Below, one piece after another: positions 768 through 41,085 of a DNA stretch of 64,000 nt. The notes under the pieces were generated by a model, which had not been told where the DNA came from, ran no database searches, and saw nothing but the letters and a program-made list of their open reading frames with translations. Within the stretch, counting starts at the first letter, position 1. The number at the start of each line of letters is the position of its first letter. The position numbers and the translations under genes are program-made. Source of the stretch: a virus; IMG/VR virus record IMGVR_UViG_3300017971_000001, positions 62,001 through 126,000 of that record. One strand, written 5' to 3'.

Positions 768-1389
768 TTCGCTCCAATTCCTCTACCCTTTTCTTCATGG
801 ACGCGAACTCTCGGTAGAGATCGGCCGTCTCGTTGCTGATCAGGCCCCGGATCGCCTGCTGAAATGGATTGCCGTAAACCCAGTTGTGAGGACTGGACAT
901 GACCTCCGGGACCAGGGCGGCGAACGCCAGCCAGTTCAGCTGCTTCTGGGTGAAATCCCTGCCGGCCTCGAAGGCGTCACGGCGCTCGTGTCGATACAGA
1001 CCCTGATCCCGTTCAGCCCGAACGGGCTGAATGATCCCAGGGTTTACAAGAGGGGGGTTCACGTCGAACGAATCCAGGTTGTAGGTGACGTAGACCTCCT
1101 TCCCGTTTGCCTGCGCCGCCTGGCCGTCGTGCTCCGTGTACATTCCTTCGAAGGTCTCGTGCGTCCCTCCCCCGAGTTCCGGCTCGGGCAGCACCGATTC
1201 GATCGAATCTCCCTTCGGGCCGCAGACGATCCGCGCTAGGTTCGTCCAGCCAATCGCCTGGCCGACGATCGAGATTGCGTCGGCGCCGTTCGATCGCGAC
1301 CAGGAGCGGACGACGCGCTCGGCGAGCTCAGGGTCCGATCGATCCGCGAGCCACTCGTTAACCGCGTTCAAGAGATCGTCGTCGCTCAA
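751..1389 (-). CDS. Hypothetical protein, 212 residues
   Basis: I place the start at TTG 1389 because the stop of the last block-A mini-gene overlaps it exactly (TTGA); an ATG at 1425 would intrude 39 bases into that gene. The protein starts MSDDDLLNAVNEWLADRSDP, ends in a short coiled coil (EFASMKKRVEELERNAEEE) and has normal soluble composition. A central segment rich in Asn, Pro and Val is followed by an Asn/Trp-containing helix. No family recognised. Confidence 0.7.
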   Translation of the reverse strand: MSDDDLLNAVNEWLADRSDPELAERVVRSWSRSNGADAISIVGQAIGWTNLARIVCGPKGDSIESVLPEPELGGGTHETFEGMYTEHDGQAAQANGKEVYVTYNLDSFDVNPPLVNPGIIQPVRAERDQGLYRHERRDAFEAGRDFTQKQLNWLAFAALVPEVMSSPHNWVYGNPFQQAIRGLISNETADLYREFASMKKRVEELERNAEEE

Positions 1390-1667
1390 AACCCCTCCAT
1401 GAGTTCTTCCGTGCGCGTATCCCAAAACAACTGGACCCAGTCGCCCATGTTTCCTTGATTCTTTCGTTGGTAGTCGGCCCAGAGCGTCGCGCTCCCCATG
1501 GTGAAGCTAATGCCAGAGGCGAACGTATAGGACGAAAAGGAGAAGTCGCTGAGCGAAAGGGAGAACCCTTTCCCAAGCCCTGCTGAATATGCAGAAGACA
1601 GCCCCCTGCCGTAGGCCAGAAAGCTGAGCAGGGGCCGGGGGCGAAGCCGGCGCCGTCGCCTCTTCAT
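1386..1667 (-). CDS. Mini-gene A11 (long form)
   Basis: 93 residues, the longest member. MKRRRRRLRPRP opens it, then YGRGLSSAYSAGLGKGFSLS shows the alternating-Gly core. The last 40 residues (Trp/Asp/Glu-rich, ending ELMEGF) are acidic and unlike the family, so the gene may be a fusion of a member with a different C-terminus. Confidence 0.65.
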   Translation of the reverse strand: MKRRRRRLRPRPLLSFLAYGRGLSSAYSAGLGKGFSLSLSDFSFSSYTFASGISFTMGSATLWADYQRKNQGNMGDWVQLFWDTRTEELMEGF

Positions 1668-1885
1668 AGGAAGGCTGATCCCATGCGGTAGTTCAGGCCG
1701 GCACCCACGGGCGCTGATCGCTTCCAACTTTCAGAGCAGTCATAGGGAAAGCGGCCGGGTCTAAGCCTCCAGAACGACATGGAGCGGTTGCCCCCCTTCC
1801 CCCTGACCCGATCCTGACCCCAGCCAAGCGCGAACTGACTCGAGGGCGGGTGGTCACGAAGGTAGGTTCGACGGCGTCGTTTCAA
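1664..1885 (-). CDS. Mini-gene A10
   Basis: 73 residues from TTG (TTGA junction). Starts MKRRRRTYLRDH; contains GWGQDRVRGKGG and ends VGAGLNYRMGSAFL. The middle is less glycine-rich than in its neighbours. Confidence 0.6.
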   Translation of the reverse strand: MKRRRRTYLRDHPPSSQFALGWGQDRVRGKGGNRSMSFWRLRPGRFPYDCSESWKRSAPVGAGLNYRMGSAFL

Positions 1886-2100
1886 GTCGCCAATCCGAAG
1901 AGTCGAGGCCGGCGAACCTGACTGGAACCCAACGCTTGCTCCAGCCCCCGGCCGAACGATAGCCCCCTGCCGCCTGCACTGCCTCGGGCAAAGTATCCGC
2001 CTTCTCCGCGCCGGCACTTACCCCTGCCAACAGGCCTCCAGATCCCGATCCCGCGTTGGGACCAAAAGAGGCAGCGTGCCTTGCTCTTGCGTCGCTTCAT
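1882..2100 (-). CDS. Mini-gene A9
   Basis: 72 residues from ATG (ATGA). Starts MKRRKSKARCLFW; core RGIGIWRPVGRGKCRRGEGG followed by GRGLSFGRGLEQALG. Two Cys. Confidence 0.65.
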   Translation of the reverse strand: MKRRKSKARCLFWSQRGIGIWRPVGRGKCRRGEGGYFARGSAGGRGLSFGRGLEQALGSSQVRRPRLFGLAT

Positions 2101-2303
2101 TGCCAGAAAGACCTCGGGAAGGTCATGGCCCAACTCGCAGCGCGAAGCTGTCCCCTGCCCTGCCTCGAGAACAGGCCAGCCCCGCTGTGATAGATCGACG
2201 GGGTAGGGTCGAGCTCGGAAGAGCGCGTCCATGCCAGAGATTTTCCTATTCCCTTCCCCCTCATTCTGACCTTGGTGATCCGGCACCTATGCCTTCTCTT
2301 CAT
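2097..2303 (-). CDS. Mini-gene A8
   Basis: 68 residues from ATG. Starts MKRRHRCRITKVRMRGKGIG, then a Ser/Trp/Phe-rich second half with GAGLFSRQGRGQ. Confidence 0.65.
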   Translation of the reverse strand: MKRRHRCRITKVRMRGKGIGKSLAWTRSSELDPTPSIYHSGAGLFSRQGRGQLRAASWAMTFPRSFWQ

Positions 2304-2482
2304 GCAGCGAGCCTCTTCGTCCAGGATCCTTCTCGTCCTAGACCAGCGCCCCACTTCATGATCAAGCCGCTGCCGAACCCATACCCCCAGAGAAGCAAGG
2401 AGGACCCACGGCCAAGCGCGGTTGACCTGCGAAGGCCTCGGCCCCGAAGGGAGGCCAGTCTATTTCTTCGGCGCCTGCTCAT
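2300..2482 (-). CDS. Mini-gene A7
   Basis: 60 residues from ATG. Starts MSRRRRNRLASLRGRGLRRS; core LLLWGYGFGSGLIMKWGAGL, one of the clearest alternating-Gly stretches of block A. Confidence 0.7.
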   Translation of the reverse strand: MSRRRRNRLASLRGRGLRRSTALGRGSSLLLWGYGFGSGLIMKWGAGLGREGSWTKRLAA

Positions 2483-2661
2483 GGAAACATTCCAATTCCA
2501 AAAGGGATCCGAAATCCGTTGCCGACCGGGCGGCGCTGACCATGGCCGAGTGAAGAACGGCGGCGGCGGGCCAGGCCGCGCCCGAAACCTCGAGACAAGC
2601 CCTGACCCTTTCCTTTGTTGAGTCCTACGACCATTCGGAACCTTCGATCCCTACGCTTCAT
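2479..2661 (-). CDS. Mini-gene A6
   Basis: 60 residues from ATG. Starts MKRRDRRFRMVVGLNKGKGQ, has a second internal Arg block (ARRRRSS) and ends GNGFRIPFGIGMFP. Confidence 0.7.
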   Translation of the reverse strand: MKRRDRRFRMVVGLNKGKGQGLSRGFGRGLARRRRSSLGHGQRRPVGNGFRIPFGIGMFP

Positions 2662-2837
2662 GCTGACCCATGGGACCGGCCTAGCCCAAAAGAGATCCAG
2701 AGATAGACCCCTGCGCCTACCGAGCACCTAAGTCCAGATCGGATCTCGCTGACGCCAGCGCCGAGCCCAACGTAAAGTCCCCGAGCTCGCTGTCGGTATC
2801 TCGATACGACAACGCTTGGCCTGCGACGACGCCTCAC
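2658..2837 (-). CDS. Mini-gene A5
   Basis: 59 residues from GTG. Starts MRRRRRPSVVVSRYRQRARG; core GLYVGLGAGVSEIRSGLRCS, ending WISFGLGRSHGSA. Confidence 0.7.
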   Translation of the reverse strand: MRRRRRPSVVVSRYRQRARGLYVGLGAGVSEIRSGLRCSVGAGVYLWISFGLGRSHGSA

Positions 2838-3016
2838 CAGATCCTCCTCCCCGGGCCCGCCAGGGAAATGCCGAGGCCGTAACCGAGGCTTCGCCCGACC
2901 CCTCTGTTCGCCCAAGCTCGAAACCTCCCGCGGCGGCGAGAGACGCCCCTCCCCATTCGGCCCCTAATGGCCGTGGCGTAGCGCCAATGAAGACAGCGGG
3001 GTCGACGCCTCTTCAC
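2834..3016 (-). CDS. Mini-gene A4
   Basis: 60 residues from GTG. Starts MKRRRPRCLHWRYATAIRGR; core GVGRSLGYGLGISLAGPG. Confidence 0.7.
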   Translation of the reverse strand: MKRRRPRCLHWRYATAIRGRMGRGVSRRRGRFRAWANRGVGRSLGYGLGISLAGPGRRIW

Positions 3017-3177
3017 TTGAACGGCCCTGCGAGCGCGTATCCAGATCCGTAGCCGGCGCCGCGTTTTGACATGATCATAGACCCCACCCCGACCGCCGTT
3101 CTCATTCCTGCTCCACGTCTGCGCCGGCTGCCCCAGCTAAGCTCCCAATGCACGGTATTCCTTCTGCGGCGCTTCAC
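3013..3177 (-). CDS. Mini-gene A3
   Basis: 54 residues from GTG. Starts MKRRRRNTVHWELSWGSRRR; core GAGMRTAVGVGSMIM then GAGYGSGYALAGPFK. Confidence 0.7.
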   Translation of the reverse strand: MKRRRRNTVHWELSWGSRRRRGAGMRTAVGVGSMIMSKRGAGYGSGYALAGPFK

Positions 3178-3326
3178 GGAAGCGCGCACCAGAATCTTCG
3201 CAGGCCCGAGCCGAAACTTTCCCACTCTCCCCGGCCTCGGTATCGCCGGAAGCCAGCCCCGAACGTCAAGCTCTGGCCGCTTACCGCGCGAATCCAGATC
3301 GACAGGTGGCGCTTCCGTCGCTTCAC
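3174..3326 (-). CDS. Mini-gene A2
   Basis: 50 residues from GTG (GTGA overlaps at both ends). Starts MKRRKRHLSIWIRAVSGQSL; core FGAGFRRYRGRGEWESFGSG. Too short for usual ORF cut-offs and found from the junction pattern. Confidence 0.7.
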   Translation of the reverse strand: MKRRKRHLSIWIRAVSGQSLTFGAGFRRYRGRGEWESFGSGLRRFWCALP

Positions 3327-3508
3327 GGGTAACAGCCAATCCCGACGCCCTTCAGCGTTCCCTGGCCAGTGTTTCTCCAGGAGCCCGCCCCGAATGAACG
3401 CCTGAAAAGCCAGTGCCTCGTTCGAGACCCTCCGCCGGAAAAACAGGCTGTGCCGACGCCCAGGAGGTCCAAAGCGTAATTGAACGGAGGCCTTCTGCGT
3501 CGCTTCAC
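3323..3508 (-). CDS. Mini-gene A1
   Basis: 61 residues from GTG, which overlaps the stop of the SLOG-like gene. Starts MKRRRRPPFNYALDLLGVGT; ends GAGSWRNTGQGTLKGVGIGC-YP. Confidence 0.7.
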   Translation of the reverse strand: MKRRRRPPFNYALDLLGVGTACFSGGGSRTRHWLFRRSFGAGSWRNTGQGTLKGVGIGCYP

Positions 3509-6649: not shown

Positions 6650-6903
6650 TCGCCCTCCACCGTCACGAAGACTCCGTAGGTCGGGTCATTGAACACCTGG
6701 CCGAGCCGGCGGTCGTCGTCCTCGGCCCAGGCGTAGATCTGGTAGCGACGGCGCACGATCTCTTCGCGCTGCTCGTCGCTCAGGAGCTTGGCCCAGTAGT
6801 CAGCCTTCGACTCCTGCTCGAGGGCGGCGCGGAGTTCGGAAGCCGAGTCGTATGCCTGGACGTTCATGCCTCCCTCTTCGCTCTCAAAGCGCATGAACTT
6901 CAA
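6646..6903 (-). CDS. Hypothetical protein, 85 residues
   Basis: TTG 6903 is chosen because it overlaps the stop of mini-gene B17 (TTGA). A downstream ATG (MNVQAYDSASEL) preceded by GAGGGAGG is the alternative. Acidic helical protein with EQREEIVRRRYQIYAWAEDD and a C-terminal Phe/Val strand. No family recognised. Confidence 0.6.
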   Translation of the reverse strand: MKFMRFESEEGGMNVQAYDSASELRAALEQESKADYWAKLLSDEQREEIVRRRYQIYAWAEDDDRRLGQVFNDPTYGVFVTVEGE

Positions 6904-7088
6904 CGAACACCTCTGACGCACAAGAACCCTCGATCCGTTCCACGTCCGTGCGTCCTGATTTGCCCTCTGCCGAGGAATCTGGCAGGAATGAATCCGCAGG
7001 AAATGGAGCGCGCTAGACCACGAGACGTTCGCTGACCTCTGAATCCAGAGCTCGCGAACAAGCGGAAGCGTCGGCGGTGCCTGATCAC
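6900..7088 (-). CDS. Mini-gene B17
   Basis: 62 residues from GTG. Starts MIRHRRRFRLFASSGFRGQR; later LGRGQIRTHGRGTDRG. Its stop overlaps the TTG of the next ordinary gene. Confidence 0.65.
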   Translation of the reverse strand: MIRHRRRFRLFASSGFRGQRTSRGLARSISCGFIPARFLGRGQIRTHGRGTDRGFLCVRGVR

Positions 7089-7123
7089 GCGACAACCATA
7101 TCGAATGTCTCGGACATGTTCAC
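7085..7123 (-). CDS. 12-codon bridging ORF
   Basis: GTG-AAC-ATG... encodes MNMSETFDMVVA. Its GTG overlaps the stop of B16 and its TGA overlaps the GTG of B17, so it could carry terminating ribosomes between them. It may act as a translational bridge without a functional peptide. Confidence 0.45.
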   Translation of the reverse strand: MNMSETFDMVVA

Positions 7124-7374
7124 GGAAAACATTGGTTCAACACGATTCCGCGAGACCCGACGATTCCGCGAGACCCGGCGACGCCGTTTCCGATCGAGCG
7201 ACTGAAACCGCACCCCTGACTGGCCCGTATGCTGAATTTCCTGAGAAGGGGATTCAAAGCGGACCCCTGCCCGGCTCCGACATAACGTCTAAGTCCATGC
7301 GATCGGCCCCGCTGTGTCCCAGGGGTCACTTGGACGTGAAACATGAAGTTGATACTCCGCTTCCTGCGATTCAG
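7120..7374 (-). CDS. Mini-gene B16, apparent CTG start
   Basis: 84 residues, reading (L)NRRKRSINFMFHVQV. No ATG/GTG/TTG lies at the expected place: the in-frame codon at the junction is CTG (GCGCTGAATCGC) with GAGGGAG about 7 bases upstream. The C-terminus holds an exact tandem DNA repeat (about 18 bases, near 7141-7178) giving VAGSRGIVGSRGIV. Confidence 0.55.
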   Translation of the reverse strand: MNRRKRSINFMFHVQVTPGTQRGRSHGLRRYVGAGQGSALNPLLRKFSIRASQGCGFSRSIGNGVAGSRGIVGSRGIVLNQCFP

Positions 7375-7384
7375 CGCAACTCCC

Positions 7385-7603
7385 TCACCGTCTTGCTCTG
7401 TCGGCCCTGAGTCCCCGCCCGCGGTTCCGCTGGAAACCGCAGCCATGGCGGGCCGTTCGATACAGCCTCCGGACCGGGTTTCCTGGTATTCCAAAGTCGT
7501 TCGTCGACCCCGATCCGATCGAGCAGCCCAGGCCCCTGGCGCGAACTCTTAGCCGCCTGGGCAGAGGCCCTCTCGTCATGCTTCTACAGCGCCTTCTTCT
7601 CAC
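7385..7603 (-). CDS. Mini-gene B15
   Basis: 72 residues from GTG. Starts MRRRRCRSMTRGPLPRRLRV; core GLGCSIGSGSTNDFGIPG. Ends in an Arg-rich tail (RGRGLRADRARR). Confidence 0.65.
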   Translation of the reverse strand: MRRRRCRSMTRGPLPRRLRVRARGLGCSIGSGSTNDFGIPGNPVRRLYRTARHGCGFQRNRGRGLRADRARR

Positions 7604-7779
7604 ACCCACGAGGAGCACGTCCAACCTGAGGACCGAAGGAGGCCGAGTCCGTAAACTCGATTCTGAGCCCTGCCGAACATGGTGATCTCGATTGGCCAGC
7701 GACCCGTCAGGTCCGCATTCCCGACCGACCGGAGCAATCCGCGACCGCGAGTCCACTTCCTCAGGCGCCTCCTCCTCAA
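7600..7779 (-). CDS. Mini-gene B14
   Basis: 59 residues from TTG (TTGA). Starts MRRRRLRKWTRGRGLLRSVG; ends VYGLGLLRSSGWTCSSWV. Found from the junction pattern. Confidence 0.65.
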   Translation of the reverse strand: MRRRRLRKWTRGRGLLRSVGNADLTGRWPIEITMFGRAQNRVYGLGLLRSSGWTCSSWV

Positions 7780-7943
7780 AACGGATCGAGTCCTAAGCCC
7801 CAGCTGAAGAAGTCGCCTCGGCCCTCAGGGCTTCTCATTCCGCTTCCTTGCGATCGGTGAAGGCCGAACGACCCGCCGAGCCTCAGTCCATACCCCATGA
7901 GCGCGGGGGTCAAGTTGGTCCGCAGGCGCCTGGATCGACTCAT
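7776..7943 (-). CDS. Mini-gene B13
   Basis: 55 residues from ATG. Starts MSRSRRLRTNLTPALMGYGL; then RLGGSFGLHRSQGSGM and a final FSWGLGLDPF. Confidence 0.65.
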   Translation of the reverse strand: MSRSRRLRTNLTPALMGYGLRLGGSFGLHRSQGSGMRSPEGRGDFFSWGLGLDPF

Positions 7944-8131
7944 GTTCGTCCTGACCAGAGGCCAACATTTCTGAACAGGCCCGATCCAAACGACGCCGTC
8001 TGACCCGTCCCCAGAGATCGGTTGAAGAGGAATGTGTATCCAGGCGTTGGGCAGCCCCAGCCGTGACCTAGCTTCAGCCCGAACCCGAAAAAGTCATAGC
8101 GCGCCGCTCCGCGACACCTCCTACGATTCAT
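7940..8131 (-). CDS. Mini-gene B12
   Basis: 63 residues from ATG. Starts MNRRRCRGAARYDFFGFGLK; core LGHGWGCPTPG, ending GSGLFRNVGLWSGRT. Overlaps B11 by 11 bases. Confidence 0.65.
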   Translation of the reverse strand: MNRRRCRGAARYDFFGFGLKLGHGWGCPTPGYTFLFNRSLGTGQTASFGSGLFRNVGLWSGRT

Positions 8132-8309
8132 TGAACAGGCCTCGAAAGCGGTGAGATCCAAAGCCCGAGACTCGACCCAGCCCGAGGCCGGCGGCGATTC
8201 GGACCAGAGTCCCGCCCCAGTTGGAGTAGGTGAAGCCCCATTCGCAGTGCGTGCCGGCGCCGAGGTTTCCCAGGCGTGCCGCGCCCTTATTTCTTCTCCG
8301 GCGCTTCAT
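8121..8309 (-). CDS. Mini-gene B11
   Basis: 62 residues from ATG. Starts MKRRRRNKGAARLGNLGAGT; then GGTLVRIAAGLGLGRVSGFG. One of few members ending in TAG. Confidence 0.65.
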   Translation of the reverse strand: MKRRRRNKGAARLGNLGAGTHCEWGFTYSNWGGTLVRIAAGLGLGRVSGFGSHRFRGLFNES

Positions 8310-8500
8310 TCTGATCCCTGGCCGCACCCGAGGTCGTGATCAAGTCCAATTCCGGAGTGAAAGCCGACTGCCCGCGAGGGGACCTCCATGCACCCAGACC
8401 CGAATCCCCAGGCTCTATCTCGTCCGTAGCCCATGGCGCAGTCGCGTCCGATACCTCCGGGCGACAGTGAGAACCGCGCCCGTCGTCGGCGATTCCTCAT
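8306..8500 (-). CDS. Mini-gene B10
   Basis: 64 residues from ATG. Starts MRNRRRRARFSLSPGGIGRD; core AMGYGRDRAWGFGSGC, ending LGCGQGSE. Confidence 0.7.
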   Translation of the reverse strand: MRNRRRRARFSLSPGGIGRDCAMGYGRDRAWGFGSGCMEVPSRAVGFHSGIGLDHDLGCGQGSE

Positions 8501-8694
8501 TGACCGCGCACCCCTCGCCCATAGTCGCAAAGCAGTCCGAGCCCGTAGAACGTTACCGTCGCCGCGACGCCCGGCGAGAGGGGAAGGCCTTCACCGAAGG
8601 CGACGCGAAGCCCAGTGGCTGCGTGGCGCCTCTGGCCGCGGCCTCTAATTGGCCCCCTGCAGACCACGACTTTTCGCCGGAGCCGCCGCGTCAA
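8497..8694 (-). CDS. Mini-gene B9
   Basis: 65 residues from TTG. Starts MTRRLRRKVVVCRGPIRGRG; ends TFYGLGLLCDYGRGVRGQ. Confidence 0.65.
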   Translation of the reverse strand: MTRRLRRKVVVCRGPIRGRGQRRHAATGLRVAFGEGLPLSPGVAATVTFYGLGLLCDYGRGVRGQ

Positions 8695-8918
8695 CTTTCG
8701 ATCCCCTCGCCGCGGTAGAAAGCCAGTCCGTATCCCCACCACACTTTCTTGGTGCCCCTTGAGACACTTCCTCCCCCGACCGCAATTCTGAAGGGCCCTT
8801 TGATCCCGCCGACTCCCCAGCACTTCCAGGACCCATACCCGCAACGCATTCCATGAATGGAGAATAGATCGTCGGTCTTGGTGAAGAGGCCGCCCTGCGC
8901 TCGCCGTCGTCTTTTCAT
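8691..8918 (-). CDS. Mini-gene B8
   Basis: 75 residues from ATG. Starts MKRRRRAQGGLFTKTDDLFS; core GYGSWKCWGVGGIKG, ending WWGYGLAFYRGEGIES. Confidence 0.7.
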   Translation of the reverse strand: MKRRRRAQGGLFTKTDDLFSIHGMRCGYGSWKCWGVGGIKGPFRIAVGGGSVSRGTKKVWWGYGLAFYRGEGIES

Positions 8919-9157
8919 GGAACAGGAATCTCGAAAGTTAGAGTGATCACGCGCGGAGGCGCGATCCCGTTCGCAATCAGGGTCATGGTCGTCGTGCAGC
9001 GCGCGTTCCCCTGGCCGTTGCCTGCGAAGTATCGCAGTCCGCTCGAACCAGGAGCGAACACAGGGAACTTGCTGAAGCCTAGGCCGACTCTGCGGAGCTC
9101 GAGCCCGAGCGCTCGGAAGTGCCAGCCGGAGTGAATGCGGCGTCGTCTGCGGTTCAT
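8915..9157 (-). CDS. Mini-gene B7
   Basis: 80 residues from ATG. Starts MNRRRRRIHSGWHFRALGLE; GLGFSKFPVF and YFAGNGQGN follow. The C-terminal 25 residues (Thr/Ile/Pro-rich) are atypical. Confidence 0.65.
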   Translation of the reverse strand: MNRRRRRIHSGWHFRALGLELRRVGLGFSKFPVFAPGSSGLRYFAGNGQGNARCTTTMTLIANGIAPPRVITLTFEIPVP

Positions 9158-9312
9158 GGGAGAACGTAGTCTCCGAATCCGTAGTAGCGCGTCGTCTTCC
9201 AGTCAATCAGGGACCCCTTCTCGGACAAGGCGTCCGCGACCGCTGCGGGGGAAGGGTCGCTCGGAACGTAAAAAGTGACGAGCGGGGACTCCGCAGCCGG
9301 CCTCGCAGTCAA
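9154..9312 (-). CDS. 52-residue ORF overlapping B6 out of frame
   Basis: TTG 9312 follows GGGAG; the peptide contains FYVPSDPSPAAVADALSEKG and ends YYGFGDYVLP. It is not a family member but has ordinary protein composition. Its stop, unlike that of B6, makes the ATGA junction with B7. It overlaps B6 by about 110 bases, so one of the two frames may be non-coding. Confidence 0.45.
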   Translation of the reverse strand: MTARPAAESPLVTFYVPSDPSPAAVADALSEKGSLIDWKTTRYYGFGDYVLP

Positions 9313-9869: not shown

Positions 9870-10033
9870 CATGCCCTCGACCGGCTGACGCCGACACCGG
9901 ACGATCTCATGGCCCCGCTGCCGATACATGACCTCATGAACAGACCATGAATTCGAAGTCCATGGCCATACGACGCCCTCAAGCCTCCGCCCGACGACTT
10001 TATGTGAATGAGGTGTCGCTTTCGACGAATCAT
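9866..10033 (-). CDS. Mini-gene B3
   Basis: 55 residues from ATG. Starts MIRRKRHLIHIKSSGGGLRA; core SYGHGLRIHG, then GSGAMRSSGVGVSRSRAW. Found from the junctions. Confidence 0.65.
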   Translation of the reverse strand: MIRRKRHLIHIKSSGGGLRASYGHGLRIHGLFMRSCIGSGAMRSSGVGVSRSRAW

Positions 10034-32665: not shown

Positions 32666-32847
32666 CGATTCCCGCCCGCAGCGCTGCCGACACCGACGCC
32701 GCATGCCTTGCCAAGTCCCCCCCGAGACGGAAGCGAGTTGCTGCCGCTGCCGGAGATCCTGCTCTGAGCGACTCCGAACCTCGCTCCGTTGCCAGCCGAG
32801 AACTCGACTGCGACCAAGGCCAGCCTCCTCCTCCGCGTTCTCTTCAT
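32662..32847 (-). CDS. Mini-gene G2
   Basis: 61 residues from ATG. Starts MKRTRRRRLALVAVEFSAGN; then ISGSGSNSLPSRGGLGKACG, VGVGSAAGGNR. Confidence 0.7.
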   Translation of the reverse strand: MKRTRRRRLALVAVEFSAGNGARFGVAQSRISGSGSNSLPSRGGLGKACGVGVGSAAGGNR

Positions 32848-33005
32848 GCGTCCTCGAAGTGCCGAATGACGAAGTGGAATCCGAGGACCCCGAAGAGGAA
32901 GCCGAACGATCGGACCGAGGCCGGAAGCACGCAGAGCATGAGCACGCACCACCAGGCTCCGATCGTGCAGATCGTGTTCACCGCTTGTTTCTGCTGAGCG
33001 GTCAC
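32844..33005 (-). CDS. Small membrane protein, 53 residues
   Basis: GTG 33005 overlaps the stop of G1; its TGA overlaps the ATG of G2. Two hydrophobic stretches (ICTIGAWWCVLMLCVLPA; FGFLFGVLGFHFVI) suggest a hairpin of two membrane helices. Confidence 0.6.
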   Translation of the reverse strand: MTAQQKQAVNTICTIGAWWCVLMLCVLPASVRSFGFLFGVLGFHFVIRHFEDA

Positions 33006-33232
33006 GGCGAAGACCACTGCGACGAGAATTGACGGTGAACAAGGCCGCCGCCGTCGCGATAACGAAAGCTCGTGATCCCCAGGGTCCGGTACATGCCCCT
33101 GCCTCGAATGCGCGGGAAGGCCAGCTTGGCGAAGCGCCGCCCTCCAGAAGAAAAGTTGAGTCCAGATCCAATCCTCCGCCGGTGGTCCAGGGAGTACCAG
33201 AAGAAAAGCATTCGGCGCCGCCTCCTCAGCAT
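33002..33232 (-). CDS. Mini-gene G1
   Basis: 76 residues. Junction ATGCTGA as at C1: ATG 33232 or CTG 33229. Starts MLRRRRRMLFFWYSLDHRRR; core IGSGLNFSSGGRRF and GRGMYRTLGITSFRYRDGGG. Confidence 0.65.
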   Translation of the reverse strand: MLRRRRRMLFFWYSLDHRRRIGSGLNFSSGGRRFAKLAFPRIRGRGMYRTLGITSFRYRDGGGLVHRQFSSQWSSP

Positions 33233-34138: not shown

Positions 34139-34205
34139 TTTCGAATTCCTTTGCGTTTACCTGATCCGCCAAAGAGGACCGCACCCCTTGCGATCACGAG
34201 AGATA

Positions 34206-34234
34206 TGTATACACGAAGAATCTCTTGTAGACAA
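34206..34234 (-). promoter_or_regulatory. Leftward sigma70-like promoter
   Basis: On the minus strand TTGTCT (34234-34229), a 17-base spacer and TATACA (34211-34206). Good match to -35/-10 with ideal spacing, about 70 bases before the regulator gene at 34138. Probably drives much of the leftward half. Confidence 0.65.
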
Positions 34235-34254
34235 CGTCAGACTTCGCTGATATT
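34225..34254 (+). promoter_or_regulatory. Rightward promoter overlapping the leftward one
   Basis: TTGTAG (34225-34230), 18 bases, GATATT (34249-34254), about 90 bases before ATG 34347. The -35 boxes of the two promoters overlap, so use of one may exclude the other. Confidence 0.45.
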
Positions 34255-34346
34255 GTTCTGCCTCGCAAGTCAAGGGGCGTCGTGTCCGGCTCCGGTGTGG
34301 TGTCGATCCTTCGCCCTCTTTCAAACGCTCAAGCAAGGAGAAAGCA

Positions 34347-34850: not shown

Positions 34851-35078
34851 ATGAATCGCCGACGCAGGAACAATGCCGCCTTCGATTTCTCGCCTAAGAA
34901 TTGGCGCTGGTGTGAAGGTCTAGGCTGGGGGCTCGGACGGTCGCTGGGATCCGGAGTGAATGATTCGCGGGGAGTCGGGCAAGGATTCGCTGCATTCGAC
35001 AAACTCGAGTTCGACTACTGGCGCTGGGAGTCCATGTCCGACGAGTGTCTGGCCGGCTTTCTTGAAAGCGTTGAGTGA
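34851..35078 (+). CDS. Mini-gene H1
   Basis: 75 residues; AGAAGG precedes ATG. Starts MNRRRRNNAAFDFSPKNWRW; core CEGLGWGLGRSLGSGVNDSR, GVGQGF; acidic end SDECLAGFLESVE. Shares core and acidic end with H4. Confidence 0.75.
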   Translation: MNRRRRNNAAFDFSPKNWRWCEGLGWGLGRSLGSGVNDSRGVGQGFAAFDKLEFDYWRWESMSDECLAGFLESVE

Positions 35079-35293
35079 CCCGACGCAGAAGACGAATGAT
35101 CTACTACAGCAGCGGAGTCGGCCTTATGTCCCCGCGCCGGCGAGGTGAAGGTGAACCCTGCGGCGCCGGCCTCGGCCTCGGCAGAGGAAGAGCTCTTCTT
35201 CAGGGCGGGTACGCACTCTTGCTGTTTCCACACCGACCTGAGAGCGGCTGGGGGTTGGGTGCCGACTGCGGCTGGGGTGTGGAGTATCTGTGA
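35075..35293 (+). CDS. Mini-gene H2
   Basis: 72 residues from GTG. Starts MTRRRRRMIYYSSGVGLMSP; GAGLGLGRGRALLQGG, ending ESGWGLGADCGWGVEYL. Paralogue of H8. Confidence 0.75.
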   Translation: MTRRRRRMIYYSSGVGLMSPRRRGEGEPCGAGLGLGRGRALLQGGYALLLFPHRPESGWGLGADCGWGVEYL

Positions 35294-35448
35294 GGCGACG
35301 CAGGCGCGCTTATGGACGGGTTTTTAGCACCTGGCTCGGAATCGGACAGACCAGGTTCGCAGGATCTGCTCAACGCCTGGCCGTTGGGATCGGCCGGAGT
35401 GAATACATAGGGCACGGCATGGGAATCGGAATCGGGAGGGGGTCATGA
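35290..35448 (+). CDS. Mini-gene H3
   Basis: 52 residues from GTG. Starts MRRRRRAYGRVFSTWLGIGQ; ends IGHGMGIGIGRGS, an almost pure Gly-x repeat. Confidence 0.7.
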   Translation: MRRRRRAYGRVFSTWLGIGQTRFAGSAQRLAVGIGRSEYIGHGMGIGIGRGS

Positions 35449-35708
35449 AGCGAATCAGGCGACGCGGCGGCCTCTCGATCGACTTCTCGCCCAAGCGCCC
35501 GCTGGATTGTGAAGGGTGGGGCGTAAAGAGAGCGCTCGGCGCAGGGTCGGCCAGCGTCCGCGGAGTCGGTCTCATGGTCGCTGACTTCGGTTGCATTGAG
35601 TCGCTTGGGCCCTCTGTTCTTGGAGATAACTTCGAATGGCTTGGCTGGGAAGGGCTCTCAGACGAAGTGCTCCAAGCAGAGATCGAATCACTGGAGGAAT
35701 CCACTTGA
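35445..35708 (+). CDS. Mini-gene H4
   Basis: 87 residues from ATG. Starts MKRIRRRGGLSIDFSPKRPL; DCEGWGVKRALGAGSASVRG, then EGLSDEVLQAEIESLEEST. DFSPK and the acidic C-terminus match H1. Confidence 0.75.
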   Translation: MKRIRRRGGLSIDFSPKRPLDCEGWGVKRALGAGSASVRGVGLMVADFGCIESLGPSVLGDNFEWLGWEGLSDEVLQAEIESLEEST

Positions 35709-35857
35709 GGCGGATCCGCCATGCAAGGCTTATCGGGCAGACTGGTATCGGCGTCGACTTCGGCGTGGGGACGGGCGTCGAGGACTGGCAGGAGCTCCAA
35801 ATTGGAGTCGGGGCCGGGATCTACCATTGGTGCTCCTGGCTCAGGTGGACCCAATGA
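35705..35857 (+). CDS. Mini-gene H5
   Basis: 50 residues from TTG. Starts MRRIRHARLIGQTGIGVDFG, VGTGVEDWQELQIGVGAGIY. Confidence 0.7.
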   Translation: MRRIRHARLIGQTGIGVDFGVGTGVEDWQELQIGVGAGIYHWCSWLRWTQ

Positions 35858-36012
35858 AGCGAAGGAGGCGAGTCTTTTTCTTGAACACCCGGCTCGCAGG
35901 GCAGTGGAGGAGAGTCGGCGCTGGCTGTGCGAGCCTCTTCGGCAGCGGGACGCCAGGTCGGTATCAAGTCGTGCGTGGCTGGGGCCTCGGCTATGCAGAC
36001 GGTTCGAGGTAG
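35854..36012 (+). CDS. Mini-gene H6
   Basis: 52 residues from ATG. Starts MKRRRRVFFLNTRLAGQWRR; VGAGCASLFGSGT, GWGLGYADGSR. Stop TAG. Confidence 0.7.
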   Translation: MKRRRRVFFLNTRLAGQWRRVGAGCASLFGSGTPGRYQVVRGWGLGYADGSR

Positions 36013-36014
36013 TC

Positions 36015-36155
36015 ATGACCAGACGGCGAAGAAGAAACGTTGGCCAAGTTGGCTGGGGGTTAGAGATCGCAGAAGGGATAGGGACGGGAGAATTCCCGCC
36101 TAATTATTCATGCGGGAGAGGACTCGACTTCGAGCATGGCTACTTCCTCCTCTAG
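36015..36155 (+). CDS. Mini-gene H7
   Basis: 46 residues, the shortest member; ATG follows the TAG of H6 by two bases. Starts MTRRRRRNVGQVGWGLEIAE; GIGTGEF, then GRGLDFEHGYFLL. Confidence 0.7.
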   Translation: MTRRRRRNVGQVGWGLEIAEGIGTGEFPPNYSCGRGLDFEHGYFLL

Positions 36156-36190
36156 GCGGGGCCGGGTTTCTTCCGAGGAGCGCAACTGTA

Positions 36191-36382
36191 ATGCGTCGGC
36201 GAAGAAGGCGGGTTGTCTACTATGCAGGCGCGTCGGGCTGCATGATCGTGACCGGAAGGGCAGAGGCAAGGCCGAGAGGGTCCGGCCTTGGCTTCAATCG
36301 ATCTCCGCCCCAGCAAGGACAGCTAACGAGCGGGGGCTGGGGACTGAATGCCGACTGCGGCTGGGGACTGGAGTACCCATGA
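36191..36382 (+). CDS. Mini-gene H8
   Basis: 63 residues from ATG after a 35-base gap with GAGGAG. Starts MRRRRRRVVYYAGASGCMIV; ends GGWGLNADCGWGLEYP, nearly the same as H2. Confidence 0.7.
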   Translation: MRRRRRRVVYYAGASGCMIVTGRAEARPRGSGLGFNRSPPQQGQLTSGGWGLNADCGWGLEYP

Positions 36383-36591
36383 GTATCAAGAAAGCCAGAC
36401 TCGATCACGCGGCGCGGAACGATCACAGTTGCTGCACCCGGCTTCCGGGCGAGAACTTCCACACAGAAGAGTGCCCGGTCTGCGGACGGCTCATGCTGGT
36501 CAGCAGGGCGCTCGTCTTCAAGTGCATGGGGATTGGGTTCTTCCTCGGCGCGTTCGCGGGCAGCGCGGTCATGGAATGGGCGACTTCGTGA
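36379..36591 (+). CDS. Zinc-knuckle membrane protein, 70 residues
   Basis: Not a family member but coupled on both sides (ATGA, GTGA). HTEECPVCGRLMLVSRALVF, then a C-terminal membrane helix (GIGFFLGAFAGSAVMEWA). An ordinary gene carried inside the mini-gene chain. Confidence 0.65.
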   Translation: MSIKKARLDHAARNDHSCCTRLPGENFHTEECPVCGRLMLVSRALVFKCMGIGFFLGAFAGSAVMEWATS

Positions 36592-36767
36592 CCCGAAGAA
36601 GGAGGAGGCTTATCAGCAGCGCGGCTGGCTGGTGTTGCGGAGAATTCTGCAAGCCGTTCGGCGTCGGTGTCTACACGGACATTGGAGTCGGGGCGACTAC
36701 GGACGCGGTCGGTCGAGGAACTCGATCCGCATACGGTCACGGACAGCGCAGAAAGGGCTGGTCGTGA
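36588..36767 (+). CDS. Mini-gene H9
   Basis: 59 residues from GTG. Starts MTRRRRRLISSAAGWCCGEF; GVGVYTDIGVGATTDAVGRG. Confidence 0.7.
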   Translation: MTRRRRRLISSAAGWCCGEFCKPFGVGVYTDIGVGATTDAVGRGTRSAYGHGQRRKGWS

Positions 36768-36952
36768 AGCGGCGTCGGCGCATGATCAGCTGCTACAAGA
36801 TCTCAGAGCGAGGGCTCGATCGGTTCAACGGGGCGGTCAGGCACCGAAAAGGTGAGTGGGGTGGGCTGCGGTCTGCAGTAACCGCGTTCGGAAGGCTGTC
36901 GATCGTAGGCATGGGGTTCGGCCTCGGTCGAAGGAACGGATTTTTTTGGTAA
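36764..36952 (+). CDS. Mini-gene H10
   Basis: 62 residues from GTG. Starts MKRRRRMISCYKISERGLDR; ends IVGMGFGLGRRNGFFW. Stop TAA within TGGTAAGGCG. Confidence 0.7.
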   Translation: MKRRRRMISCYKISERGLDRFNGAVRHRKGEWGGLRSAVTAFGRLSIVGMGFGLGRRNGFFW

Positions 36953-37152
36953 GGCGAAGGAGACACTCGAGGGGTGAATGGAGATCTCGCGGAAGGGGGC
37001 TCGGACGCTACTCGATCCAGGGTCGGTGGCGTTTCTACTACCCGCCCATTTACCCCTACCGCGCCCTCCCCAGGGGAGTCGAAATCGCCGCAGCCGTTGG
37101 CTGGGGCGCGGGTCACGCCAATGGATACGGTGGACGCAGGCGGTCGCATTGA
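36946..37152 (+). CDS. Mini-gene H11
   Basis: 68 residues from TTG overlapping TGGTAA. Starts MVRRRRHSRGEWRSRGRGLG; IYPYRALPRGVEIAAAVGWG, then AGHANGYGG. Confidence 0.65.
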   Translation: MVRRRRHSRGEWRSRGRGLGRYSIQGRWRFYYPPIYPYRALPRGVEIAAAVGWGAGHANGYGGRRRSH

Positions 37153-37397
37153 AGAGGAAGAGGCACAACCGATCGCTTGGATTCTACCTCGGGTCGTCTG
37201 GGGCCGGCGGTCCACGCCACAGACGGCGCCGCCCGAAGGGCCGAGTCTACGGAGCCGGTTTCAGAATCTCCATTGCGTGGGGCAGTCTGGGAGGCGCTCC
37301 CTGCGTAGTGTCCGGAGGGCTCGGTTACTCGGTCGGCACCGCAGGAAACAGGCACCCTTCCTGCGAATTTGGGTTCGGTTTGAACTGCTTGTCATGA
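37149..37397 (+). CDS. Mini-gene H12
   Basis: 82 residues from TTG. Starts MKRKRHNRSLGFYLGSSGAG, an internal Arg run (RHRRRRPKG), then GGLGYSVGTAGN and FGFGLNCLS. Confidence 0.7.
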   Translation: MKRKRHNRSLGFYLGSSGAGGPRHRRRRPKGRVYGAGFRISIAWGSLGGAPCVVSGGLGYSVGTAGNRHPSCEFGFGLNCLS

Positions 37398-37627
37398 AGC
37401 GACCGCGACGACGATACCGAGTCCCCGACGTTCACCTCCCGCTCGAGCTCGACGCGTTCGGCTGGGGACTGCGCTGCTTCGGGCAAACTCGCTGGGACTG
37501 GTTCGACGAGCTCGTGGTTGGAGGGCTGGGCTTGAGGCGAAAGACAGGCGCCGGTCAACGGCGCTGCGCAGGCGTTCACCACAGGCCAGACGAGTGGCCG
37601 CCGAGATCGCACGAGGTCATTTTCTAA
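37394..37627 (+). CDS. Mini-gene H13
   Basis: 77 residues from ATG. Starts MKRPRRRYRVPDVHLPLELD; AFGWGLRCFGQTRWDWFDEL, GGLGLRRKTGAG. Paralogue of H14. Stop TAA. Confidence 0.7.
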   Translation: MKRPRRRYRVPDVHLPLELDAFGWGLRCFGQTRWDWFDELVVGGLGLRRKTGAGQRRCAGVHHRPDEWPPRSHEVIF

Positions 37628-37858
37628 ATGAAGAGATCGAGGCGGAGGTATCGCGTTCACGACGCAAACTCGTTCGGCCAGCCTGACTCCTACGGCTGGG
37701 CCATGGACGGATTCGGTCAGCTGGACTGGCGCTGGTACGACCCCATGTATGTCGAGGGGAGGGGCCTCGGGCGGAAGTTGGGAGACGGGCTGTGGTATGG
37801 AGCGGGGGCGTCTCGACTCAACCGGCGCTACACGCTCATGTACGAGGGGCCTGAATGA
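37628..37858 (+). CDS. Mini-gene H14
   Basis: 76 residues from ATG directly after the TAA of H13. Starts MKRSRRRYRVHDANSFGQPD; YGWAMDGFGQLDWRWYDPMY, GRGLGRKLGDGLWYG. Confidence 0.7.
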   Translation: MKRSRRRYRVHDANSFGQPDSYGWAMDGFGQLDWRWYDPMYVEGRGLGRKLGDGLWYGAGASRLNRRYTLMYEGPE

Positions 37859-38010
37859 GAAGGCGGCGCAGAATGCCCCAGATTCGATTCAACTGCCCTG
37901 AGTCCGCAGGGTTCGGGCTGAATGAATCGGGCTTGAATTCGTGGTGGTCTCGTCAGCCTCCGCGGGGAAGCGGGCTATGGCTGCCGGTAGGGCTGGCGTG
38001 CTGGTCATGA
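37855..38010 (+). CDS. Mini-gene H15
   Basis: 51 residues from ATG. Starts MRRRRRMPQIRFNCPESAGF; GLNESGLNSWWS, GSGLWLPVGLACWS. Confidence 0.7.
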   Translation: MRRRRRMPQIRFNCPESAGFGLNESGLNSWWSRQPPRGSGLWLPVGLACWS

Positions 38011-38171
38011 AGCGTCGTCGACGGATCGGCAACCCCTGCTGCAGCCACATGCGTGGATACGGCCTGAGGAAAACGCTGAGCGTTGGGCTCTGTCCTTTGG
38101 TCTGGGATCGATTGAAGTCCCTTGAATCGGGGCGAGGTTTGGTCCACGCGTTCGGCTGGGGGATCGAATGA
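38007..38171 (+). CDS. Mini-gene H16
   Basis: 54 residues from ATG. Starts MKRRRRIGNPCCSHMRGYGL; ends GRGLVHAFGWGIE. Confidence 0.7.
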   Translation: MKRRRRIGNPCCSHMRGYGLRKTLSVGLCPLVWDRLKSLESGRGLVHAFGWGIE

Positions 38172-38338
38172 AGCGCAGGCGGAAATGCAGGCGGCCGAAG
38201 AGGTTCGTCTCGACGGGGCTCACTCCCTATCACTGGATCAACCTCGAGCGAGGCGTTGGGCTAAGGTGTTTTGTTGGGTCCGGGGTCATATCCTCTTGGG
38301 GTGACTATGTGATCGGCAGGAACCCCTCTCAAGCATGA
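38168..38338 (+). CDS. Mini-gene H17
   Basis: 56 residues from ATG. Starts MKRRRKCRRPKRFVSTGLTP; ERGVGLRCFVGSGVISSWGD. Confidence 0.7.
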   Translation: MKRRRKCRRPKRFVSTGLTPYHWINLERGVGLRCFVGSGVISSWGDYVIGRNPSQA

Positions 38339-38372
38339 AGTGAAACGCACAAACAAGGAGGAACTGGAATGA
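38335..38372 (+). CDS. Two minimal bridging ORFs
   Basis: ATG-AAG-TGA (38335-38343) overlaps GTG 38340, which opens a 10-codon ORF (MKRTNKEELE, 38340-38372). Its TGA overlaps ATG 38369. Both keep the stop/start chain and the MK(R) beginning, as if remnants of a mini-gene. Confidence 0.4.
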
Positions 38373-38791
38373 CGAAAGCGAACAAAGAGGTCCCCGGGGA
38401 TCTCGCGAAATTGATCCACTGCTACACCGGGCCGGGGGTCGCCCTCTACGCTCAGACGCAGCGAGGCGAGAAGAGCCGGCTGCCGAGGGAGCGCCTGGAG
38501 GAACTCGTCGAGGAGGGTTGGCTCTCGGCTCACGATCGATCGTTCGCTGAAGGCTGGGACGGGGAAGAGGAAGAGATCGCTCCCGAGTTCGAAGACGGGA
38601 GGTGGTGGAACCCCGGCACCGGCGACGAGATCCCCGCCGAGAAAGTCTACCGCTCCTACCTGACTCTTCCGGCGGCCCACGAAACGCACGCAGCAAAGCT
38701 GGCTCGACTCGAGCGCCTGCGGAGCCGAGTCCGCGAGACGCTCGACGAGATCGCCGCCCTGGAGCAAGAACTCGGAATTCAGGGCGAGTGA
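38369..38791 (+). CDS. Hypothetical acidic protein inside block H, 140 residues
   Basis: AAGGAGG upstream and coupled on both sides, yet unrelated to the mini-genes. RYSYL-type core (VALYAQTQRGEKSRLPRERL; ERLEELVEEGWLSA), an acidic middle, and a coiled coil at the end (LARLERLRSRVRETLDEIAA). Function unknown. Confidence 0.7.
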   Translation: MTKANKEVPGDLAKLIHCYTGPGVALYAQTQRGEKSRLPRERLEELVEEGWLSAHDRSFAEGWDGEEEEIAPEFEDGRWWNPGTGDEIPAEKVYRSYLTLPAAHETHAAKLARLERLRSRVRETLDEIAALEQELGIQGE

Positions 38792-38994
38792 GGCGGCACA
38801 GACTGCGATTCTGCAGACGGAAAGACGCTGGCGTCGGACTGCGCTACGCCATGAGCGGCATGCAGCACTTCGCGCCGCACCCATTCATGCTCGTGAGGTT
38901 GCACGTCATTGGACGAGGGGTCGGACGAGGCTATGTGGGCCAGGACGCGTCCCTGCGGCCCGATCCGAGCCGCGCCCTGAGGCGGGGCGTATGA
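38788..38994 (+). CDS. Mini-gene H18
   Basis: 68 residues from GTG. Starts MRRHRLRFCRRKDAGVGLRY; IGRGVGRGYVG, ending ALRRGV. Confidence 0.65.
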   Translation: MRRHRLRFCRRKDAGVGLRYAMSGMQHFAPHPFMLVRLHVIGRGVGRGYVGQDASLRPDPSRALRRGV

Positions 38995-39188
38995 GCCGTC
39001 GTCGCAGAACCTTCTGGCTCTTTGTGGACGGAGGTCTGGGCAAGGGCCTGGGCGACAACCACGCCGCCGGCGCCGAGTGCGACGCGTGGGAGCTCGGCGA
39101 ACTCGGGTTCGACATTGACCTCCCCTTCGAGGGAAGCGGGCTGCGCCGATCGTGCGGCTGGGGAATCGAGGGGCTGGGTCCGTGGTGA
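38991..39188 (+). CDS. Mini-gene H19
   Basis: 65 residues from ATG. Starts MSRRRRTFWLFVDGGLGKGL; GSGLRRSCGWGIEGLGPW. Confidence 0.7.
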   Translation: MSRRRRTFWLFVDGGLGKGLGDNHAAGAECDAWELGELGFDIDLPFEGSGLRRSCGWGIEGLGPW

Positions 39189-39333
39189 GGCGGCGCAAGC
39201 GAAGGAAGTGGTTCTTCACGGACGCCGGCGTCGGGCGCGGGGCTCAGGCCCGCCACGGAATTGGACTTGAGTACATGCCCTCGTCCATGGAAGGGTGCGG
39301 GCTGTGGCGCCCTTGGGCTGGGGGAACGAATGA
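39185..39333 (+). CDS. Mini-gene H20 with apparent -1 frameshift
   Basis: From GTG 39185: MRRRKRRKWFFTDAGVGRGA, then GIGLEYMPSSMEGCGLWRP. One extra C in the CCC run near 39310 would continue into LGWGNE and the TGA at 39331-39333 that overlaps H21, the usual family ending. As given, the frame runs on through H21 and fuses with H22 at 39679. Confidence 0.5.
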
Positions 39334-39500
39334 GGCGGAGAAGAAGGCCGGCGGGCGTCATTTCGGACGAACTCATGATCGGACTCGGGCTGGGCGACGA
39401 GATCGGCGGCGGTCAGTTCTGGGGAGCCGGGATCGGTTTGCGCCGTGGCTGGGGATCGTGGCGATCCAAGTCGGTCGCCCTGGAGGCCTTTGCTCTATGA
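39330..39500 (+). CDS. Mini-gene H21
   Basis: 56 residues from ATG. Starts MRRRRRPAGVISDELMIGLG, then LGDEIGGGQFWGAGIGLRRG. Confidence 0.7.
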   Translation: MRRRRRPAGVISDELMIGLGLGDEIGGGQFWGAGIGLRRGWGSWRSKSVALEAFAL

Positions 39501-39679
39501 GGCGACGCAGGAGAGTGAAGACCGGCATGCTTTGGGACTGGGAGATTGGAGTCGGGCTCGAGGGGACGGGCGGATTGCTCAATTACGCGCACGGCCTGCT
39601 GAGTTACATGTCGACCGCTTGGATCAGCTACAGCGGGCGAGGTGATTGCCGCGGGCTCGGTGAAGGAGATCCGCGTTGA
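39497..39679 (+). CDS. Mini-gene H22
   Basis: 60 residues from ATG. Starts MRRRRRVKTGMLWDWEIGVG; ends SGRGDCRGLGEGDPR. Shares RRVKTG(M/I)L with H23. Confidence 0.7.
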   Translation: MRRRRRVKTGMLWDWEIGVGLEGTGGLLNYAHGLLSYMSTAWISYSGRGDCRGLGEGDPR

Positions 39680-39837
39680 AGCGAGGAAGGCGAGTGAAGA
39701 CCGGGATCCTCCATTCGAAGGAAATCTCCGCGGGAATGATCAGTTACCAATGTATCCATTACGGAAGAGGGCTTAGGAACCACCTATCCCCTTGGCGCAC
39801 ATTCTTCTATCGAAGCCGTGGGCTTGGTAAATGGTGA
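39676..39837 (+). CDS. Mini-gene H23
   Basis: 53 residues from TTG. Starts MKRGRRVKTGILHSKEISAG; YGRGLRNHLSPW, then SRGLGKW. Confidence 0.7.
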   Translation: MKRGRRVKTGILHSKEISAGMISYQCIHYGRGLRNHLSPWRTFFYRSRGLGKW

Positions 39838-40061
39838 GGCGCAGGCGACTGGCAATCCTCGGCCTCGATAGCATGGAGGCCGTCGCCCTCATGACGGGAG
39901 AGGGCAAGATTGCGCCAGCCGACGAGCTCGGCGGCGAGGTCGGATACGGTCTGCTGGTCGAGGCTGGCTACGGTCACGCGACGACCAAAGGGAATAGCTA
40001 TCTGCGCTGCACGGGACGAGGTTTGAGGAAGAGCGTGTCTGGAGGCATTCGATCATGGTAA
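39834..40061 (+). CDS. Mini-gene H24
   Basis: 75 residues from GTG (ATG 39831 possible). Starts MRRRRLAILGLDSMEAVALM; EVGYGLLVEAGYGHAT, GRGLRKSVSGGIRSW. Stop TAA in TGGTAAGGCG. Confidence 0.7.
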   Translation: MRRRRLAILGLDSMEAVALMTGEGKIAPADELGGEVGYGLLVEAGYGHATTKGNSYLRCTGRGLRKSVSGGIRSW

Positions 40062-40246
40062 GGCGGAGGCGAAGGCTGAACTCCGGTTACTACTGGGGCG
40101 TCGCCGGGGCCGGGTTCGGCCGGCTGGTTGGCTGGGGGGCCTCTATCGCAATTGGGGAATCCGCAGAGCGCAACGTGGGAATCGGTGTCGGCGGTGGCGT
40201 CATGCCTTCCGGCGCTGCTTTGATCGACGCGGGGTGGCGGTGGTAA
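40055..40246 (+). CDS. Mini-gene H25
   Basis: 63 residues from ATG overlapping TGGTAA. Starts MVRRRRRLNSGYYWGVAGAG; FGRLVGWGASIAIGES, NVGIGVGGGV. Confidence 0.7.
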   Translation: MVRRRRRLNSGYYWGVAGAGFGRLVGWGASIAIGESAERNVGIGVGGGVMPSGAALIDAGWRW

Positions 40247-40485
40247 AGAGGCGTCGGCGCAGGCCGTTACCTGCGATCATTTTCTGCGCCGCTGGCGCAG
40301 GAGCGAACACCCACTCGGAATTCAATCGGCGGGACTTTGGCCTGGGGCAGCAGTCAGAGATCGGGTTCGCAAGAACGGGTCGAGACTCGTGCCTGGGCGG
40401 GGCCGGTTTCTCGGTATCGATCGGAGCAGGGATCGTCTCCGGGGCCGGGAAGGCCCTCACCGGTCACTACTGGGGGTACCTGTGA
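40240..40485 (+). CDS. Mini-gene H26
   Basis: 81 residues from GTG overlapping TGGTAA. Starts MVKRRRRRPLPAIIFCAAGA; GAGANTHSEFN, LGGAGFSVSIGAGIVSGAG. Confidence 0.7.
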   Translation: MVKRRRRRPLPAIIFCAAGAGANTHSEFNRRDFGLGQQSEIGFARTGRDSCLGGAGFSVSIGAGIVSGAGKALTGHYWGYL

Positions 40486-40691
40486 AAAGGCGGCGCAGGA
40501 CCATTCTCTCGAGCTTCTGCAGCTGGTTCTATCCGAAGCGGCGGGTCATGGGGCGAGGCCGCAGGCGGTACGTTGGAACCGGCCGGAACAAGCGGCCTGG
40601 GGTGCCTACGGCCTGGGGCGACGGGCAGTATCAGTGCCTCGCGATCGGCGTCGATCGAGCCACGGGCTTCGGGCGGGGGTCCTTTCATTGA
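40482..40691 (+). CDS. Mini-gene H27
   Basis: 69 residues from GTG. Starts MKRRRRTILSSFCSWFYPKR; MGRGRRRYVGTGRNK, IGVDRATGFGRGSFH. Confidence 0.7.
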   Translation: MKRRRRTILSSFCSWFYPKRRVMGRGRRRYVGTGRNKRPGVPTAWGDGQYQCLAIGVDRATGFGRGSFH

Positions 40692-40876
40692 GACGGCGCC
40701 GCTACCGCATTCACTACACTCGCTACCTCCAGCGCGGAGGGCCCTACCGCGGCTGCGGTCAAACGTTCTGCGTCGGCGTCTCGAACCTCGACTTCTTCAG
40801 GATCGGATCTGGAATGGGCTGCGGTAGAGAGTCGGGTCGCGCACAGCAGCGAGACGTCGGCGGGTCGTTCCAATGA
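40688..40876 (+). CDS. Mini-gene H28
   Basis: 62 residues from TTG. Starts MRRRRYRIHYTRYLQRGGPY; FRIGSGMGCGRESGR. Confidence 0.7.
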   Translation: MRRRRYRIHYTRYLQRGGPYRGCGQTFCVGVSNLDFFRIGSGMGCGRESGRAQQRDVGGSFQ

Positions 40877-41085
40877 ATCGGCGCCGTAGGCGGCGGGCGG
40901 TTCAAACTCCGTTCTTTGGTCCCTGCTCTTCAGGGCTGCGGCGAATCACAGGAGCCGCCATTACCGGGAGGTTTCATTACCGATACGTTGCTGGCTGCGG
41001 AGTTGGTGTATGCTTCGCGCGCCCTCCGAACCTAAGATCCTTCCAATTCACCCCCTGGCCGATCTCTGGCCGCCGCCCTAGTTAG
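40873..41085 (+). CDS. Mini-gene H29
   Basis: 70 residues from ATG, last of the block. Starts MNRRRRRRAVQTPFFGPCSS; AAITGRFHYRYVAGCGVGVC. Less Gly at the end; stop TAG, then AGGAG for the next gene. Confidence 0.65.
   Translation: MNRRRRRRAVQTPFFGPCSSGLRRITGAAITGRFHYRYVAGCGVGVCFARPPNLRSFQFTPWPISGRRPS

Follow-up and report, generated by a model that had tools for sequence, protein, structure and literature searches.

Do phages rely on large mixtures of simple assembling peptides for tasks that others leave to a single structural or nucleoid protein? The question is raised by a stretch of 64,000 bases (the window), positions 62001-126000 of the 245,276-base IMG/VR record IMGVR_UViG_3300017971_000001 of a huge phage, in which tiny genes with an arginine-rich start and a glycine-rich tail follow one another in chains. 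If they do not, the locus stands out as an example of genes proliferating like cassettes inside operons. Coordinates below are those of the window, unless marked as genome positions.

Genome setting

The record was assembled from a metagenome, and some of its frameshifts may be errors. It encodes a phage integrase, an MT-A70 methyltransferase, DHFR, helicases and a primase-like protein, together with several tRNAs and one tmRNA. This phage tmRNA lies at genome 127997-128557 (L003:1997-2557, outside the window), has the tag ADQKAHLPTATSRA and adjoins tRNA-Gly(TCC). A 43.7-kb contig, IMGVR_UViG_3300017991_004323, is essentially the same virus (99.98% identity across 12.3 kb). Searches with four large anchor proteins returned only the same virus and remote helicases, and no closer relative.

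A CRISPR array is present at 51194-54071, with 11 repeats of approximately 36 nt, most of them spaced 66-79 nt. Next to it is a Cas12m-like effector of around 700 aa (PDB 23vw, E 3.5e-43). A fragment of the repeat is found again at genome 118677, and an inverted copy near 241895. The genome also encodes a collagen-like protein of 911 aa at genome 3490-6225 (L006:1490-4225, outside the window; Pfam Collagen, E 1.3e-50).

Size of the mini-gene family

All start codons were scanned for ORFs with at least 3 Arg/Lys in residues 2-7, and ORFs that did not look like the family were dropped by eye. This left 83 mini-ORFs between 1386 and 41085, with an N-terminal Arg/Lys block followed by G-x-G repeats. 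Five chain neighbours with weaker heads (7120-7344, 11910-12071, 35705-35857, 38788-38994 and one beginning at 39185) bring the total to about 88, the number given in the original prediction. The 83 members alone occupy 16,446 bases, or 25.7% of the window, which agrees with the quarter estimated there. Furthermore, at least 21 members lie outside the window, at genome 51.3-58.7, 146.8-147.3, 175.8-176.4 and 190.0 kb, giving at least 104 across the 245-kb record.

A strict scan found 76 members in positions 1-42000 and 0 in 42001-64000. Applied to ten first-order Markov sequences the same scan returned 0-1, and the reversed sequence had 0; by chance, about none would be expected. An HMM built from the member alignment matched the record at 70 places, with a best E of 3e-11. 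A codon-scored gene path recovered 81 of the 83 members, with codon models partly trained on the family itself. The observation of a chained Arg-block/Gly-rich mini-gene family is confirmed. The members are arranged as follows.

Block A, 1386..3508, minus strand: 11 chained mini-genes, all with 4-base overlaps, flanked by the ordinary genes 751-1389 and 3505-3990
Block B, 6900..10439, minus strand: 16 mini-genes, mostly chained, plus the weaker 7120-7344
Block C, 11734..12844, minus strand: 5 mini-genes plus the weaker member 11910-12071
Block D, 17406..18899, minus strand: 7 mini-genes, with an ordinary membrane-protein-like gene (17612-17842) in between; 18360-18545 is a doubtful case
Block E, 21057..21242, minus strand: a single mini-gene, chained to ordinary gene 21239-21430
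Block F, 25430..28354, minus strand: 14 mini-genes, mostly chained, including the frameshifted 26584-26754
Block G, 32468..33232, minus strand: 3 mini-genes, interrupted by ordinary gene 32844-33005
Gap between divergent gene runs, 34139..34346, no strand: 208 bases, with one sigma-70-like match on the plus strand
Block H, 34851..41085, plus strand: 26 mini-genes of lower net charge, with the ordinary genes 36379-36591 and 38369-38791 in between

The blocks A-H of the original prediction are present, but they are not made of mini-genes only, since ordinary genes are interleaved. At least one member (26584-26754) is frameshifted. All members were also said to point away from 34.2 kb. This is the case within the window, where those left of approximately 34.1 kb are on the minus strand and those right of 34.85 kb on the plus strand. 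It does not extend to the whole genome, where the members at 146.8-147.3 kb are on the minus strand. The gap at 34139..34346 is a candidate divergent promoter region.

Chaining of the genes

The predicted NTGA overlaps are the rule: 73 of the 83 starts fall in a 4-base overlap with the upstream stop, 51 of them with another member as the upstream ORF. The genes thereby form chains of the translationally coupled kind, with NTGA overlaps on one strand. The ordinary small genes interleaved with the blocks are mostly joined through the same 4-base overlaps, which account for 79 of the 119 same-strand junctions in 1-34.2 kb. An SD-like motif is found ahead of 36 of the 83 starts (43%), compared with 18% at control positions. 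This is a large, phage-specific family of translated-looking mini-genes, chained inside ordinary small-gene operons.

The overlap also shapes the peptide. The start had been described as M(K/R/N/S/T)RRRR; the second residue can also be I, and its restriction to these six is mostly set by the overlapping TGA, which requires a codon beginning with A. When Arg is at this position, the codon is AGR in 26 of 28 cases. The AGR codon as a special signal was considered and rejected, as with position 2 set aside it is only slightly commoner in the block than in the tail.

Peptide architecture

Members have a median length of 63 aa. The head is (K/R)RRRR, with Arg at each of positions 3-6 in 65-79 of the 83. 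A variable stretch follows, and the first G-x-G is mostly at residues 14-23. In the tail, distances between glycines peak at 2, 6, 8, 10, 14 and 16, with short odd distances depleted. The underlying unit is the octad G-x-G-[LQV]-x-R-[SA]-[FIVWY], a new addition to the earlier observation. The two-unit pattern G-x-G-x5-G-x-G occurs 107 times for 6.5 expected, G.GL 122 times for 18, and G[FYW]G 73 times for 26. This pattern belongs to one frame, with 6.6 G.G per 100 aa against 2.4 and 1.2 in the other two.

Relative to base composition, F (2.5x), Y (1.8x), G (1.5x) and I (1.5x) are enriched, with P (0.45x), V and A depleted. RGG is depleted (6 observed vs 25 expected, z -3.8) and GRG is enriched instead, which leads us to reject an RGG/RG-box RNA-binding domain and disfavours the canonical RGG-like RNA/DNA binding suggested originally. 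Glycine-zipper spacing is not enriched (G...G 218 vs 208 expected, z 0.8), and a membrane-like, hydrophobic segment is seen in 1 of 104 members; glycine-zipper peptides and membrane peptides were both rejected on these counts.

In terms of charge, the mean net value is +11 for the minus-strand members and +6 for block H. Block H tails have a mean of +1.5 and a minimum of -9. Charge is not a conserved property of the tail, and there are members that are net acidic.

Codon usage and selection on the peptide

All six Arg codons occur in the Arg block, and 82 of the 83 15-mers are distinct, as was claimed from the differing codons of each member. All four kinds of Gly codon are used in the octad. 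The synonymous codons of the Arg block vary freely, which points to the peptide as the conserved element. A comparison of paralogue pairs had been suggested as a check. In the best pairs pS is approximately 0.7-0.8 and pN 0.3-0.4 (for example 0.72/0.33 and 0.81/0.40), with pN below pS in all pairs listed; pS is saturated and the pairs were chosen by protein score, so the comparison agrees with selection on the peptide without being proof. Together with the free Arg and Gly codon variation and the frame-specific G-x-G, it supports the earlier proposal that selection acts on the peptides.

The family differs from the ordinary genes of the same operons, with GC3 of 0.69 vs 0.83 and AGA making up 12.7% of Arg codons vs 2.1%. 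These values fit relaxed codon selection, low expression or youth. Being unlike that of neighbouring genes, this codon usage argues against very high expression, and against very abundant structural proteins.

Searches for relatives

The statement that no known domain fits is borne out by the databases. In Pfam (80 members, E<=1) and PHROGs there was no significant profile match, the best E being 0.033 and hits being to single members only. PDB gave only a Gly-Ser linker, aquaporins and the like (E>3), and Rfam only tRNAs. A DNA pattern search of IMG/VR for two coupled Arg-block starts returned chance matches only. The coupled-start pattern in GTDB contigs, scored with the family HMM, had a best E outside the virus itself of 0.01 among the matches listed, again attributable to chance. 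In phages, tblastn with the consensus and one member gave nothing or E>=0.5, and the family profile found no relative in 398 sampled bacterial genomes. Beyond the record, the family was sought with degenerate patterns, with single proteins or with a profile run over sampled genomes, and its absence elsewhere is only as strong as these methods. AlphaFold runs with 80 and 30 sequences gave pLDDT of 55.8 and 56.3 with little or no regular structure, which does not prove disorder. We regard the family as real and as an orphan.

Divergence and recombination

Members are mostly unalignable as DNA. One exact tract of 103 nt is common to 26751-26981 and a member at genome 52453, 36 kb apart, and its end falls within the Arg block of the following gene. 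Between neighbouring members, the heads are identical over 17-19 nt. From this one tract and these head identities, recombination does occur, and recent copying is rare. The frameshifted member (26584-26754, in the region 26540-26754) has an alternative frame in which a family tail can still be read, running into the next NTGA.

A diversity reservoir of the DGR type had been among the suggested roles. It is disfavoured, even though recombination occurs, and DGR variable genes were rejected: the RVT_1 reverse transcriptase model has no match in the 245-kb record.

Comparison with known systems

In 2014, Hernandez-Garcia reportedly joined a basic block to a silk-like octapeptide block, a head-plus-silk design. 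Designed silk-like (GAGAGAGQ)n beta-solenoid coat proteins share with the mini-gene peptides a Gly-alternating block of 8-residue period (PMC5388506). Such octad blocks form beta-solenoid fibrils and have been used for DNA coating, as coats of artificial viruses (PMC5388506). They are designed, long and highly regular, whereas the phage octads are short and irregular, with many Arg and aromatic residues, and their assembly is putative. We regard the designed coat as the nearest working analogue, not as a demonstrated relative.

Bacterial ice-nucleation proteins, with AGYGST-type octads and 16-residue repeats, form a beta-solenoid and assemble into fibres (PMC9418140, PMC10727499). The 8/16-residue G-x-G period is found in the mini-genes too, in the Gly autocorrelation at 8 and 16 and in the 107 octad pairs, as a shared period and not as homology. 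Ice-nucleation proteins are, however, very long single proteins with threonine/tyrosine arrays, and their repeat model is absent among the Pfam matches of 80 members at E<=1.

The FUS-type low-complexity/LARKS and RGG domains are similar in their Gly-aromatic-Gly and GRG motifs and low proline, but the family differs in its RGG depletion, octad phase and N-terminal Arg block. Finally, Arg-rich viral nucleic-acid-condensing proteins and protamines also carry an Arg cluster on a small protein; in the mini-genes, by contrast, net charge is not conserved, as seen in the block H tails.

In our judgement, the combination of an Arg head with the octad G-x-G-L-x-R-S-[aromatic] is a new architecture, with no relatives found in these searches. 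Among phages, we are not aware of a gene family whose members number at least 104 and are tiny, mutually diverged and translationally chained.

Possible function

Among the roles originally suggested, condensates or nucleic-acid packing are possible. Our tentative preference, which we consider well short of established, is that nucleic-acid-binding heads and self-associating beta-type tails are made as a mixture. Because family matches are absent and AlphaFold is uninformative, we infer the mechanism. Where two genes overlap, termination-reinitiation is a known mode of translation (PMC6728339), and the products of such pairs are often subunits of heteromeric complexes (PMC10666635). Ribosomes would likewise go from mini-gene to mini-gene, and the product would be a set of many non-identical peptides, each made in a similar amount. 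Through its free N-terminus, the Arg head would bind nucleic acid, be it the phage genome, transcripts, or host RNA or DNA. The tail, in which small and large residues alternate around each G-x-G and which is aromatic-rich and proline-poor, may self-associate as a beta-type sheet or solenoid, or as a condensate. In the infected cell, the mixture would then co-assemble into a nucleoprotein coat, scaffold or condensate. Dosage, together with low sequence specificity, could explain the retention of many diverged copies, with constraint on the head and octad and drift in the remainder.

Several results count against this reading: the GC3 and AGA usage, the non-conserved tail charge (negative in some block H members), the AlphaFold pLDDT of about 56 in both runs, and the absence of relatives tying the family to a virion or early module. 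A more specific version, which we consider unlikely, is that the family is nature's equivalent of engineered minimal coat proteins, with more than 100 different basic-head, Gly-octad-tail peptides from polycistronic chains co-assembling on nucleic acid as a sequence-tolerant sheath or condensate during infection.

The next explanation, rather doubtful in our opinion, is an anti-host or anti-defence arsenal, in which each small basic early peptide binds a particular host or competitor target, and an arms race accounts for how many and how diverged they are. Operon-rich regions of small orphan genes are where phages usually keep their takeover genes, and the members do lie among such genes; they are also highly diverged, with tails mixed by recombination. 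Nevertheless, all members have the same head and octad, no member matches a known inhibitor in Pfam or PHROGs, and diversifying selection is not seen, with pN below pS in all the (saturated) pairs listed.

It is also unlikely, to our mind, that the family has only a weak function, as an NTGA and Arg-block unit that can be copied into any 4-base overlap with the coupling unbroken, multiplied largely for itself and with a loosely constrained product. Block borders at the NTGA overlaps of ordinary genes fit such a cassette, as do the 103-nt tract that is shared with another block and ends in the next Arg block, the relaxed codon usage and the persistence of broken members. What it explains poorly is the strong protein-level pattern in more than 100 diverged members; in addition, the single recent long copy found implies low current mobility.

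Secreted, lytic or antimicrobial cationic peptides, the first two suggested originally, would be small, Arg-rich and Gly-rich like the members, but this role is disfavoured and very improbable given the near absence of membrane-like segments, the unenriched GxxxG, sequences that do not look like signal peptides and the net acidic members. Least credible of all is a DNA or RNA element (a binding array or structured RNA) left open by chance, which would suit the unusual codon usage, but not the free synonymous variation beneath conserved Arg and Gly, the NTGA chaining, the frame pattern kept past a frameshift or the restriction of Rfam matches to tRNAs.

Other repeated elements

A second, scattered paralogous family is found at 23532-24035, 34347-34748, 42530-43312 and 62163-62753, with several copies in L004 and L008. 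Its members start like RIRxLERxAxxGDPxAxxxLxxxRLRxGEL and possibly consist of helical repeats. Lastly, an exact inverted repeat pair of 43 nt lies far apart, at genome 133730 and 172069.
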